Source: an uncultured Prevotella sp. (GTDB taxonomy: Bacteria > Bacteroidota > Bacteroidia > Bacteroidales > Bacteroidaceae). Taken from it: a stretch of DNA of 64,000 nt. Each line of letters opens with the position of its first letter. Positions within the stretch are counted from its first letter, which is position 1. The notes beneath the pieces are model-generated. The model had not been told where the DNA came from. It worked only from the letters and a program-made list of their open reading frames with translations, and did not search any database. Position numbers and translations under genes: made by a program. The DNA lies in the NCBI GenBank assembly GCA_946415245.1, contig CAMKRS010000004.1:32410-96409 (forward strand). The letters are read 5' to 3'. This document shows, piece by piece, positions 11,696 to 17,190 of this stretch.

Positions 11696-11998
11696 ATGAC
11701 ACAAATCATTAAAGAAGAAGGAAAGACCATCGTTAAAACTGGTGAGCGCGTAGATACCTTGAACGCTGCACAATTTGAACGGGAAGTGGAGGCTGTATTG
11801 GAACCTGGCATCGACCTGGAATTTGACTGCACAGACTTGCAATACATCTCAAGTTCTGGCCTGCGTGTCATTCAAGAGATGATGCGTATCGTCACCCGAA
11901 AGCTCAATGGACAAATCAAAGTGACACATGTAAGTGCGCCTATCTTCAAAATCTTCCACATGACCGGATTTACCCGGATTATTACCATTGAAAAATAA
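11696..11998 (+). CDS. STAS-domain anti-sigma factor antagonist
   Basis: DLEFDCTDLQYISSSGLRVIQEMMR; ~100 aa single domain. Confidence 0.85.
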   Translation: MTQIIKEEGKTIVKTGERVDTLNAAQFEREVEAVLEPGIDLEFDCTDLQYISSSGLRVIQEMMRIVTRKLNGQIKVTHVSAPIFKIFHMTGFTRIITIEK

Positions 11999-12015
11999 AA
12001 AGGTAAAAGAAGCAT

Positions 12016-12711
12016 ATGGCAGACATTTTCAACAAGGAAGCCTTGGAAGCGCTGGATGCCAAGAGTGAGGCGGAGGAGATGGCACGTGTGGCCTCACCAA
12101 AACTGAAACTGGTGCTTGGCGCCATGTTGGCTATGGTGGCTGTGGGCGTCTATTGGTGCGCCTTTGGTACCATCAATGATAAAGTGACGGCTCAAGGTAT
12201 TGTCTTCCCCTTTGGAGAGGTTAAGGCCGTCAATGACTCTACCATCGGCACCAACGATCGAGTACTGGTGAGTCACGGCCAGGCTTGGTTGGTGCCTGAA
12301 ACACAAGGCCGGGAAATGCTCTGCTATGTAACCTTCAACGACCTGAGGAAACTGAAACTTGGACAACAGGTACAAGCCACACCCGCTGACCTGCAGCGTG
12401 AAAACTGGGGTTATGCCTACGGAACGGTGAAGGGTATTGAACAGTACCCAACCACAAAGGATGATGTCATACGACGGTTAAAACTGGATCCGCTGGCAGC
12501 GTTCATCAAAGATGGTGAGGCCATTTACGAGGTGCGGGTCATACTCGATGAGCAAAATGGACATCTTGTCTGGAGCCGTGAAAAGAGCCAAGGGCTGAAG
12601 ATTAATACGGGCTCGCTCTGTAATATTCAGATCATCACCCAGCAGAAACCCGTCTGGCGAGTACTCATCGGTGCCGTTGACAACGCAGTAGAATCAGCAA
12701 CAGGCAATTGA
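12016..12711 (+). CDS. HlyD-like membrane fusion protein of NHLP-type exporter
   Basis: Single N-terminal TM, barrel-like segments, position directly before two NHLP-type ABC transporters. Confidence 0.7.
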   Translation: MADIFNKEALEALDAKSEAEEMARVASPKLKLVLGAMLAMVAVGVYWCAFGTINDKVTAQGIVFPFGEVKAVNDSTIGTNDRVLVSHGQAWLVPETQGREMLCYVTFNDLRKLKLGQQVQATPADLQRENWGYAYGTVKGIEQYPTTKDDVIRRLKLDPLAAFIKDGEAIYEVRVILDEQNGHLVWSREKSQGLKINTGSLCNIQIITQQKPVWRVLIGAVDNAVESATGN

Positions 12712-12718
12712 CAGGAGC

Positions 12719-14851
12719 ATGAGCAAGGTCGTGAAAATGCCAATGGTGATGCAGATGGAATCTGTGGAGTGTGGCGCAGCCTCATTGACAATGATTCTAG
12801 CGCATTACGGCAAGTGGTTGCCCTTGGAGGAGGTACGTGCGGCTTGTGGTGTTTCACGCGACGGCAGTTCGGCAAAAGATATCGTACTAGCCGCCAGGAA
12901 CTACGGTTTGGAGGCAGAAGGCTATCAGGTAACACCTGAAGCACTCGAGGGCATGCAACCCGCCATCATTCATTGGAACTTCAATCATTTTGTTGTCTTC
13001 CGAGGCTTTAAGAACGACATCGCCTGTCTGAACGACCCCAATGCAGGGCCTATAGATGTGCCCATCGATGATTTCAGAAAATCCTTCACGGGTGTAGCCC
13101 TGACGTTTGCCCCTACAGAGGCTTTTGAAAAGGAGGGACACCGTACCCGCATCCTGTCATATGTCAGGAAATACCTTCAAGGGGCTGGCGAGGCCTTCTG
13201 GCTCACTTTCATCTTTGCTCTCTTAGCGGCTTTCGTCGCCCTCGTCATCCCTCTCTTTACCCGTACCTTCCTTGATGAGATTCTCTCAGGCAAGAACCGC
13301 GACTGGAGCTCGACCTTCTTCCTGCTCATGGGAACGGTGGCGCTATTCCAATTCATTTTGGTATTACTACAAGCCCGCTATGCCAAACGAATAGCCGGAT
13401 CGTTGGCCTTGAAAGGAAATGTAAAGTATCTCAACCATGTACTGCGATTGCCCATCTCTTTCTTCGCCATGCGAAGCGTGGGTGAGTTGCAACAACGCCA
13501 ACATCTGAATGAGACCATCACACACTCACTGGTGGAAGTGCTGGCACCACAAATCATCAACATCGCCCTACTCGTACTCTACCTCGCCCTGATGCTCAGT
13601 TATTCGGTCATACTGACCTTAGTTGGTATCATTGCTGCTGTGGTCAATCTGCTTATTGTACAGTACCATTCCAATCAACGTATCAACCTCATCCACTCTA
13701 TGGAACAGAGCACAGGCAGATATTTCTCTGCTACCGTTTCATGTATTGATAATATGGAGAGTATCAAGGCTGCGGGTGCTGAGACGGGTTTCTTTGAATA
13801 CTGGAGCGGTCTTTGGGCCAAAAAATTCAATATGGAAGGTAACGCCACCGAACAACAATTGAAAATGGGGTTGCTGCCTATCCTCGTAAACGGACTGGTC
13901 AATACCACCATCCTCATACTTGGTGCCTTATTGATTCTGAAAGGAGAACTTTCAGTAGGTATGCTTTTGGCCTTCCAAGGATTTATGTCATCGTTCCTTT
14001 CACCTGTCAACGACATCGTCAATGCCTCGAAGACCATCGTAGTGATGCGCAGCCAGATGGAGCGTATCGAGGATGTGATGAAATTCCCAGAAGACCACCG
14101 CGAGAATGAGGGAGAAATGTTTGAGGGCAAATTGGGTGGACTGGTAGAATTGAAAAACGTCACCTTCGGCTACTCCACCCTCCAACCTCCGCTTATCGAG
14201 AATTTCAACCTACGTATCGAACCTGGTCACAGCGTGGCCATCGTTGGGAGCAGTGGTTGCGGCAAGTCGACACTTGCAAAACTCATCTCCGGACTCTATA
14301 AACCGTGGTCGGGAGAGATCCTCTTCGATGGAAGACCCATAGAAAGTATTTCTTCTGAGGAACTGACAAACTCCGTAGCCGTCATCGACCAGAATGTTGT
14401 ACTCTTCGACGATACCGTTGCCCAGAACATCCGTATGTGGGACGAGAGTATCGAGGACTTCACACTGATGATGGCCTGTAACGATGCCCAGATACGTGAT
14501 GATATCGTCAGTCGTCCTGATGGATTCGGCACAAAACTCGTCAGAGGCGGACAGAACTTCTCCGGTGGCCAACGTCAGCGGATGGAAATAGCCACAGCCT
14601 TGGCTAAAGAGCCCGCTGTGCTGATTATGGACGAAGCCACCTCGGCCCTCGATCCGAAGACAGAAGATGAGGTGATGGCTTCAATCCGTCTGATGGGACC
14701 CACACAAATGATTATTGCACATCGTCTCTCAACCATCCGTGACTGTGACGAAATCCTCGTCATGGATCAGGGAAGGATTCTCCAGCGTGGCACCCACGAG
14801 ACGCTGATAGAGCAGGAAGGATTATATAGGGATTTAATGAAGAGTGAATAG
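12719..14851 (+). CDS. NHLP-type bacteriocin export ABC transporter with N-terminal C39 peptidase
   Basis: C39 motif QMESVECGAASLTMILAHYG, His motif HWNFNHFVVF, Walker A GSSGCGKST, FSGGQRQRMEIATAL. Confidence 0.92.
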   Translation: MSKVVKMPMVMQMESVECGAASLTMILAHYGKWLPLEEVRAACGVSRDGSSAKDIVLAARNYGLEAEGYQVTPEALEGMQPAIIHWNFNHFVVFRGFKNDIACLNDPNAGPIDVPIDDFRKSFTGVALTFAPTEAFEKEGHRTRILSYVRKYLQGAGEAFWLTFIFALLAAFVALVIPLFTRTFLDEILSGKNRDWSSTFFLLMGTVALFQFILVLLQARYAKRIAGSLALKGNVKYLNHVLRLPISFFAMRSVGELQQRQHLNETITHSLVEVLAPQIINIALLVLYLALMLSYSVILTLVGIIAAVVNLLIVQYHSNQRINLIHSMEQSTGRYFSATVSCIDNMESIKAAGAETGFFEYWSGLWAKKFNMEGNATEQQLKMGLLPILVNGLVNTTILILGALLILKGELSVGMLLAFQGFMSSFLSPVNDIVNASKTIVVMRSQMERIEDVMKFPEDHRENEGEMFEGKLGGLVELKNVTFGYSTLQPPLIENFNLRIEPGHSVAIVGSSGCGKSTLAKLISGLYKPWSGEILFDGRPIESISSEELTNSVAVIDQNVVLFDDTVAQNIRMWDESIEDFTLMMACNDAQIRDDIVSRPDGFGTKLVRGGQNFSGGQRQRMEIATALAKEPAVLIMDEATSALDPKTEDEVMASIRLMGPTQMIIAHRLSTIRDCDEILVMDQGRILQRGTHETLIEQEGLYRDLMKSE

Positions 14852-14853
14852 CC

Positions 14854-17022
14854 ATGGCCATCTATATCAAACAGATCAATAAGCGTAGACAGCTGGAGCG
14901 AAGCCTCCTGGCAGAAGCCCTGGACCGTGGCGCCCAGAGATTGGGATTCCTGCGCCGAAAGAAGGCTATACCACAAACAAGCCAATCGGCACTCAGGCAG
15001 ATTCTCGATGCATTAGGCATCAAGGACTATGACCTGGAGGAGAATGACATCGTTTCGCCTGAGGAGCAACTGACAGGCATTCTACGACCCCGTGGCATTC
15101 TCATGCGTCGTATTCGTCTGACTGGCGAATGGTGGCGCGAATGTGTCGGACCTCTGCTCGGCTACGCCAAAGATGGTCAGCTTCTGGCCCTGACGCCCAC
15201 CAGCAGCGGACTAGGTTATCATTACCGCGACCGCAATGGCATCATCAGAAATATCGGCAAGAAGGAGATGGAACAAGAACTCAAGCCCATAGCCTTAACA
15301 TTTACCAAACCACTACCCTTGCGGGCGCTAGGTATCAAGGATCTGATCAACTTTGCTTGGGATGTCGTATCTGGACCCAATGCCTTGATGCTCTGTCTGG
15401 CAGCCCTTGTCGTAGTGCTACTGGGTATGTTTACCCCTATGGCCAACAAACTTATCTTTGATACGGTCATTCCTACGGGCGATGCCTCCGACCTGTTGCC
15501 TATCACAGGACTGCTGTTAGGAGCCACCATCGGTACGATGCTGCTCACACTCACCCGTAACCTCTATATTACCCGTGTGCAGCATATCGTTGACCTTCAC
15601 ACCCAGAACTCTATCATGGCCCGTACCTTTCTGCTCTCGCCCACCTTCTTCTCCAAGAACGCCAGTGGCGAACTGAGTGCCAAGATCAATAATGTGTCTA
15701 TCCTCTCTGGCATGATCAATGAGACCATCATCGGCGCAGGACTCTCTGCCGTACTCTCACTGATTTATCTCATGCAGCTGTGGATCTACGGCCGATCACT
15801 GCTCTTCCCCGCCCTTGGCATTCTGGCCCTTCAGACAATTATCCTCTTATTGGTTTACAGACGGACGGTCCGTATCCAGGGCATGTACACTGAGAAAGCA
15901 ACCAAGCTCAGCGGATTAGAATATAATATGTTTGCCGGCATTCAGAAAATCAAGTTGACGGGCTCTGAGAACCGCGCTTTTACTCGATGGCTCGACCATT
16001 ATACCGACCAGGCGCGACTGCTCTATAATCCTGCCTTTATCTCTCGTATGTATTCGGCTCTGACCGCCTTCCTCGCTATCGGAGGCACCATGCTCATTTT
16101 CTGGTCTACCCTCTCAAACAACGTCTCGCCGTCCGACTATATCGCATTCAGTTCAGCCTTTGGCATGATGACGGCAGCGATGGCACAGATGAAAAACATA
16201 GTGCCGACACTGGCACAAATCAAACCTCTCCTGAACTCCGTTAAACCCATTCTGGAAGCTGTGCCTGAGATGGAAGCCAAGGCCCCGCAAGTGGAAGACC
16301 TGTTTGGTGGCATTGATGTCAGCGGACTGAGTTTCCGCTATGAAGAAGAAGGGCCGCTGGTACTTGATAACCTCTCACTGCGCATAGAACCTGGTGAGTA
16401 TGTAGGACTCGTAGGTCGTTCAGGTAGTGGCAAGTCTACGTTTATGCGATTGCTTCTAGGCTTTGAACAACCACTCTCAGGAGGTATCTATTACGACAAT
16501 TACGACCTGGCGAAAGTCGATAAGACCAGTCTGCGCCGGAGGATTGGCTGTTGTCTGCAAAGTGGCAACCTCTTCACAGGCGACCTCTTCCAGAATATCA
16601 CCATCACAGCACCTTGGGCTACACATGAAGACGCTTGGGAAGCTCTGCGGATGGCAAGCCTTGAGGAAGATGTGCGCAGAATGCCTATGGGACTGAATAC
16701 CCTCATCAGCGAGAGCGGTAGTGGTCTCAGTGGTGGACAGAAACAGCGTATCCTTATCGCCAGAGCCCTGATCTCGAAACCCGACATCATCTTCTTCGAC
16801 GAAGCCACGTCTGCTCTTGACAATATCTCTCAGAAGCAAGTCAGCGAAAATCTCGACCAGCTTAACTGTACCCGTGTTGTCATTGCCCAGCGCCTGTCTA
16901 CTATCCGTCATTGCGACCGTATTATCGTGCTCGACAAAGGCAAGATCGCCGAACAAGGCACCTACGAGGAACTCATGGAGCGGAAAGGCCTCTTCTACGA
17001 AATGTCATTACGCCAATTATAA
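14854..17022 (+). CDS. NHLP-type ABC transporter permease/ATPase (second subunit)
   Basis: Long cytosolic N-terminus, TM domain, GRSGSGKST, LSGGQKQRILIARAL. Confidence 0.88.
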   Translation: MAIYIKQINKRRQLERSLLAEALDRGAQRLGFLRRKKAIPQTSQSALRQILDALGIKDYDLEENDIVSPEEQLTGILRPRGILMRRIRLTGEWWRECVGPLLGYAKDGQLLALTPTSSGLGYHYRDRNGIIRNIGKKEMEQELKPIALTFTKPLPLRALGIKDLINFAWDVVSGPNALMLCLAALVVVLLGMFTPMANKLIFDTVIPTGDASDLLPITGLLLGATIGTMLLTLTRNLYITRVQHIVDLHTQNSIMARTFLLSPTFFSKNASGELSAKINNVSILSGMINETIIGAGLSAVLSLIYLMQLWIYGRSLLFPALGILALQTIILLLVYRRTVRIQGMYTEKATKLSGLEYNMFAGIQKIKLTGSENRAFTRWLDHYTDQARLLYNPAFISRMYSALTAFLAIGGTMLIFWSTLSNNVSPSDYIAFSSAFGMMTAAMAQMKNIVPTLAQIKPLLNSVKPILEAVPEMEAKAPQVEDLFGGIDVSGLSFRYEEEGPLVLDNLSLRIEPGEYVGLVGRSGSGKSTFMRLLLGFEQPLSGGIYYDNYDLAKVDKTSLRRRIGCCLQSGNLFTGDLFQNITITAPWATHEDAWEALRMASLEEDVRRMPMGLNTLISESGSGLSGGQKQRILIARALISKPDIIFFDEATSALDNISQKQVSENLDQLNCTRVVIAQRLSTIRHCDRIIVLDKGKIAEQGTYEELMERKGLFYEMSLRQL

Positions 17023-17034
17023 ACTATAGAGAAG

Positions 17035-17190
17035 ATGAATAAAAAAGGTATCCGCAAAAATAAAGAAGAGCTGGCATCAGAACGACGCCAACTCACTCTG
17101 GATGAATTGTCAAGGGTAACGGGAGGTGTTACTGCACCTTCGACGTCATCGGGCCACGTACACCCTTATAACTCTTCAAAAAAGCCTTAG
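17035..17190 (+). CDS. putative double-glycine leader peptide, candidate cargo of the adjacent exporter (51 aa)
   Basis: MNKKGIRKNKEELASERRQLTLDELSRVTGG|VTAPSTSSGHVHPYNSSKKP*; absent from the supplied ORF list; 12 nt after the second ABC gene. Confidence 0.7.
   Translation: MNKKGIRKNKEELASERRQLTLDELSRVTGGVTAPSTSSGHVHPYNSSKKP

Follow-up and report, generated by a model that had tools for sequence, protein, structure and literature searches.

Selection on a double-glycine recognition segment, but none visible on the residues behind it, in a 51-aa ORF that follows an NHLM-type C39 exporter in a rumen Prevotella

The NHLP/NHLM export system is described by the models TIGR03796, TIGR03797 and TIGR03794 (Haft et al. 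2010, PMC2887384), and NHLP cores are described as hypervariable after the double glycine (PMC2887384). In LahT, recognition is reported to proceed via Leu-12, Leu-7 and Val-4 ahead of the double Gly (PMC6363468). A comparable arrangement is found in the window (the whole 64-kb stretch of DNA that was analysed) of a rumen Prevotella, in which a tiny double-glycine peptide gene lies directly behind peptide exporter genes.

The operon runs from a STAS gene over a short HlyD, a C39-ABC gene (ABC1) and a peptidase-less ABC gene (ABC2) to the 51-aa ORF, and is followed by a convergent DUF3108 gene (Table 1). ABC1 scores 882.4 bits against TIGR03796 (NHLM_micro_ABC1), above the cutoff of 853.3, ABC2 reaches 681 bits against TIGR03797 (NHLM_micro_ABC2; curated cutoff 709), and the HlyD-like adaptor gives a partial match of 85 bits to TIGR03794 (curated cutoff 156). 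The closest solved relative of the ABC1 C39 domain is LahT (6mpz, E 3.2e-53), the catalytic Gln, Cys, His and Asp are retained, and the exporter genes are under strong constraint (dN/dS 0.03-0.05). The C39 exporter that had been proposed upstream of the peptide is thus a genuine NHLM C39 system. Its adjacency needs a correction: the ORF belongs to the same operon and starts 12 nt (17023-17034) downstream of the second ABC gene's stop codon, but its immediate neighbour is the peptidase-less ABC2, with the C39 gene one further away. No TolC-like gene was seen beside the operon, no modification gene was recognised within it, and no immunity gene was recognised in the operon or between exporter and DUF3108. 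In most related operons compared (L037, L041, L044, L047), ABC2 is followed by a second HlyD and a TolC-like gene, and further genes in some of them encode an RsbW-like kinase, a periplasmic-binding-type protein and a probable sensor phosphatase; against these, the window operon (11696-17022) has only STAS and the shorter HlyD.

Table 1. Positions of the exporter operon, the small ORF with its parts and the convergent gene in the window.
Feature	Position	Strand	Remarks
STAS anti-sigma-factor antagonist, first gene of the operon	11696..11998	+	PF01740 E 1.2e-12; TIGR00377 above cutoff
HlyD-like adaptor, short (231 aa)	12016..12711	+	TIGR03794 partial
NHLM ABC1: C39 peptidase, permease, ATPase	12719..14851	+	TIGR03796; Peptidase_C39 PF03412; closest 6mpz
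NHLM ABC2: permease/ATPase without peptidase	14854..17022	+	TIGR03797
Double-glycine peptide ORF, 51 aa	17035..17190	+	ATG 17035, stop TAG 17188-17190; product MNKKGIRKNKEELASERRQLTLDELSRVTGGVTAPSTSSGHVHPYNSSKKP
Hairpin GAGTTGGCGTCGTTCTGATGCCAGCTC within the leader ORF	17068..17094	-	T-rich tail TTCTTTATTT at 17067-17058; conserved in six close relatives
C39 recognition segment L(-12)TLDEL(-7)SRV(-4)TGG	17092..17127	+	sole part with protein-level selection; registers as in LahT
Post-GG "core" VTAPSTSSGHVHPYNSSKKP, 20 aa	17128..17187	+	antisense to the last DUF3108 codons from 17129 on
Convergent DUF3108 gene, overlapping the core codons	17129..17938	-	PF11306 E 3.7e-53

The ORF exists as the preliminary description gave it, with the same coordinates and the same 12-nt gap, and encodes a leader of 31 aa carrying L-12, E-8, L-7, V-4 and GG. 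Leu, Leu and Val stand in exactly the registers recognised by LahT, with Glu-8 in addition. With the motif L/M/I/V-x3-[ED]-L-x2-[VIA]-x-GG, a strict pattern which other substrates could escape, it is the sole matching short ORF in the window, and it has the claimed L-x-x-x-E-L-x-x-V-x-GG arrangement. The chance expectation of such an ORF is 0.01, or 0.005 when only ATG ORFs of 35 aa or more are counted (first-order Markov sequences of the same length). Across its own assembly (1.88 Mb, 52% complete), the corresponding DNA pattern matched the 51-aa ORF and one site within a 220-aa open frame, and the same strict pattern yielded no further GG leader peptides in G000, G090, G031 and the genome of L035.

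An ORF occupies the same place in eight relatives, giving nine loci with the window. The close set consists of the window and five relatives (ABC2 91-94% identical), and three more relatives (about 81%) serve as outgroups. The relatives' ORFs begin with an ATG 9-12 nt past the ABC2 stop and have their stop within or close to the same convergent DUF3108 gene. Conservation in related genomes, which had been named beforehand as a check, was borne out in that GG motif and position are kept in all nine loci. L-12, E-8, L-7, V-4 and GG are invariant across the six close orthologs, and the three outgroups keep I-12, L-7, V-4 and GG, with M at -8. Although the nine leaders align up to the GG, the residues beyond it do not: the cores read VTAPSTSSGHVHPYNSSKKP, VTAPSMSSENVPPYSSSRKP, VTALSTTSDHEPPYNS, VTAPSTSSDRVPPYNS, VNQARHQD, MNQAHHYND, VHKNRPQP (twice) and IHGYSVGKRGKNAN.

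Selection reads the ORF as protein, as judged from its codons, only within the C39 recognition segment, which sits between the hairpin and the DUF3108 stop. In the six close orthologs, the codons of TLDELSRVTGG show a pN/pS of 0.15 at a pS of 0.50, near the 0.50-0.61 of the neighbouring genes, and 14 of 20 changes fall on third positions (p=0.0009); these tests concern a small sample of six sequences and 11 codons, and the split into zones was chosen after the hairpin was noticed. The earlier proposal of a recognition motif of the C39-substrate type is therefore upheld, with selection at the protein level and registers that match LahT. An initial signal of protein selection on the whole leader (p=0.0014) was discarded, as splitting at the hairpin traces it to the recognition segment alone.

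The N-terminal part behaves differently. A hairpin followed by a T-run lies on the minus strand 35 nt beyond the DUF3108 stop, is more stable on this strand than on the plus strand and is conserved in all six close orthologs (z -3.2 to -6.1); it probably serves the convergent DUF3108 gene as its intrinsic terminator. In the ORFs of the three outgroups, a similar scan found no such hairpin. In the six close orthologs, the leader codons over the hairpin have a pS of 0.22 and a pN/pS of 0.58, and their codon-position bias is not significant (p=0.19). By these measures K8-L20 evolves like an overlapped opposite-strand terminator rather than like a protein. The charged leader, which had been cited as evidence for a substrate, loses its weight accordingly, with K8-L20 antisense to a terminator-like hairpin and devoid of significant codon-position bias.

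After its first codon, the core is the antisense of the conserved DUF3108 tail. This overlap is shared by the window and three relatives; the cores of the other five loci are encoded in extra spacer ahead of the DUF3108 tail and comprise 8-14 aa of unrelated sequence, with the outgroup cores VHKNRPQP and IHGYSVGKRGKNAN stopping short of that tail. In the peptide frame, pooling the overlap class gives a pS of 0.006 and a pN of 0.141 (pN/pS about 22), so that nearly all core differences in this class alter amino acids. In the DUF3108 frame, third positions change 12 times per 20 codons in the overlap, compared to 10-16 in other blocks (mean 13.1). These silent sites vary at a normal rate, so no additional constraint from the peptide frame is visible. 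The 20-aa mature peptide proposed as the product is hence hardly a conserved one, given its antisense origin, its amino-acid-changing differences and the unrelated 8-14-aa cores of close relatives. Nor does the peptide qualify as a class II (unmodified) bacteriocin, with a core that shows no constraint and no recognised immunity gene. Hypervariable cores are common among exported peptides, so missing purifying selection is no proof of missing function.

The overlapping core was probably derived through spacer loss, because all three outgroups encode short cores before the DUF3108 end. A single origin is not rejected (one-clade test, p-AU 0.107). An ABC2 tree that nested short-core forms among overlapping ones was set aside for its weak support; the concatenated tree is a star within the clade, so how often and in which direction the core changed is judged from the three outgroups.

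GG peptides beside ABC1 in the NHLM operons of the genus carry 0-31 residues after the GG, with cores of 5-31 aa in most operons. Seven loci whose ABC1 is 54-56% identical (L207, L208, L209, L211, L212, L213, L215) have 0-3 residues, and their peptides directly precede HlyD. In another genus, a GG leader peptide (L241:1447-1557) has none, and in L215 and L241 the start codon of HlyD shares bases with the peptide stop (ATGA). A model built from three peptides with 0-3-residue tails gives a match to the window peptide (E 0.005). As a peptide ending at GG cannot free cargo by cleavage there, some leaders either act otherwise or are vestigial. The leader peptides of L208 and L211 have weak Nif11 similarity. 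L129 (G013), L192, L193, L194 and L210 carry GG peptides with a short core and, at the N-terminus, a hydrophobic (membrane-like) helix; in most of them a coiled-coil-like stretch lies ahead of the GG motif. The region upstream of one NHLM exporter (L047:600-2900) holds an array of eleven GG peptides, all different but with long leaders that resemble each other. The close relative G399 has two unlinked GG peptides (L151:231 and L154:1465; cores KKPPKPKFEG and KKKPTPPFKEK), which are possibly further substrates.

Based on this comparison, the 51-aa ORF very likely encodes a peptide that is a genuine C39 partner for an exporter of a known type. With the exporter, the motif, its conserved position and the selection on it as computed results, the best explanation overall (probability roughly 0.6) would be a real co-translated gene whose product is docked by C39 and cleaved at GG, while the sequence of its tail is unconstrained. 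The ORF would be translated together with the NHLM exporter, and the peptide would dock on the C39 domain of ABC1 via L-12, L-7 and V-4; cleavage after GG and then export would follow, and anything leaving the cell would be a short hydrophilic tail of unconstrained sequence. An ancestral core of 8-14 aa was probably replaced in the window when a spacer deletion let the frame run on into antisense sequence of the DUF3108 tail. That the ORF is no gene at all but merely the antisense of DUF3108 tail and terminator agrees with the evolution of its core and N-terminal half. Such a by-product is nevertheless highly improbable, as the recognition segment between hairpin and DUF3108 stop evolves as protein, the outgroups retain GG motif and spacing where no such hairpin was found, and the motif is hardly expected by chance.

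Alternatively, VTAPSTSSGHVHPYNSSKKP could be a functional unmodified microcin or signal peptide of an ordinary C39 substrate with the usual hypervariability, in line with the short variable cores that are the rule beside the exporters of the genus and with the cores described for NHLP. This appears unlikely, since the core changes are those that DUF3108 silent sites permit, at an ordinary rate with neither constraint nor acceleration, and an immunity or modification gene was not recognised. Perhaps the tail does not matter and it is the recognition segment that works on the exporter, for example by blocking or gating the C39 site or through a part in assembly or regulation. The confinement of selection to this segment and the peptides with 0-3 or no residues after GG speak for such a role, which is tentative at best because cores of 5-31 aa are found in the majority of operons in the genus. 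Selection confined to the motif and an unconstrained tail would make the recognition segment, and not a 20-aa product, the conserved working part, and the related leaders with 0-3 residues after GG suggest that the leader itself may be that part. A broader idea, that Prevotella-type NHLM exporters use a dedicated, translationally coupled, cargo-less double-glycine leader as gate, plug or regulator of C39 instead of a precursor, is doubtful; if true, the peptide in the window would be one of these leaders, its tail having turned into arbitrary antisense sequence. Nothing relevant on cargo-less GG leaders was found in the literature, and the few papers that mention TIGR03796 or the NHLM bacteriocin system did not appear, by title and abstract, to deal with Prevotella. 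Antimicrobial mining routinely takes the residues after GG, which here yields a peptide not preserved by evolution, whereas the recognition tag is preserved. As sister operons end at or just past GG, caution is advised against the blind synthesis of such "cores". This raises a testable question, whether a C39 exporter depends on a leader peptide as such.

Compared to described systems, the locus shares with NHLP/NHLM the row of C39-ABC, peptidase-less ABC and HlyD genes and a GG-leader precursor whose conservation stops at GG. It differs in having no nitrile-hydratase or Nif11 leader (the NHLP, TIGR03793, and Nif11, TIGR03798, precursor domains gave no match to the peptide up to E 0.1) and no recognised modification enzyme, in a leader of 31 instead of about 70-83 aa, in an adaptor of only 231 aa and in a core that overlaps an unrelated gene. 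The recognition segment also resembles the CCRG-2 family RiPP (NF033456), although the match is weak (13.5 bits) and under the curated cutoff of 24. LahT (AMS/PCAT, 6mpz) belongs to a lanthipeptide cluster, and cleavage in the window system is a prediction, but L-12, L-7, V-4 and GG, which this closest solved C39 domain recognises, are all present in the window peptide. While the Bacteroidales PCAT clusters with GG-motif precursors (PMC10352776) were chosen for modification enzymes, of which the window operon shows none, they have the same gene order and the same pairing of C39 exporter and GG peptide.
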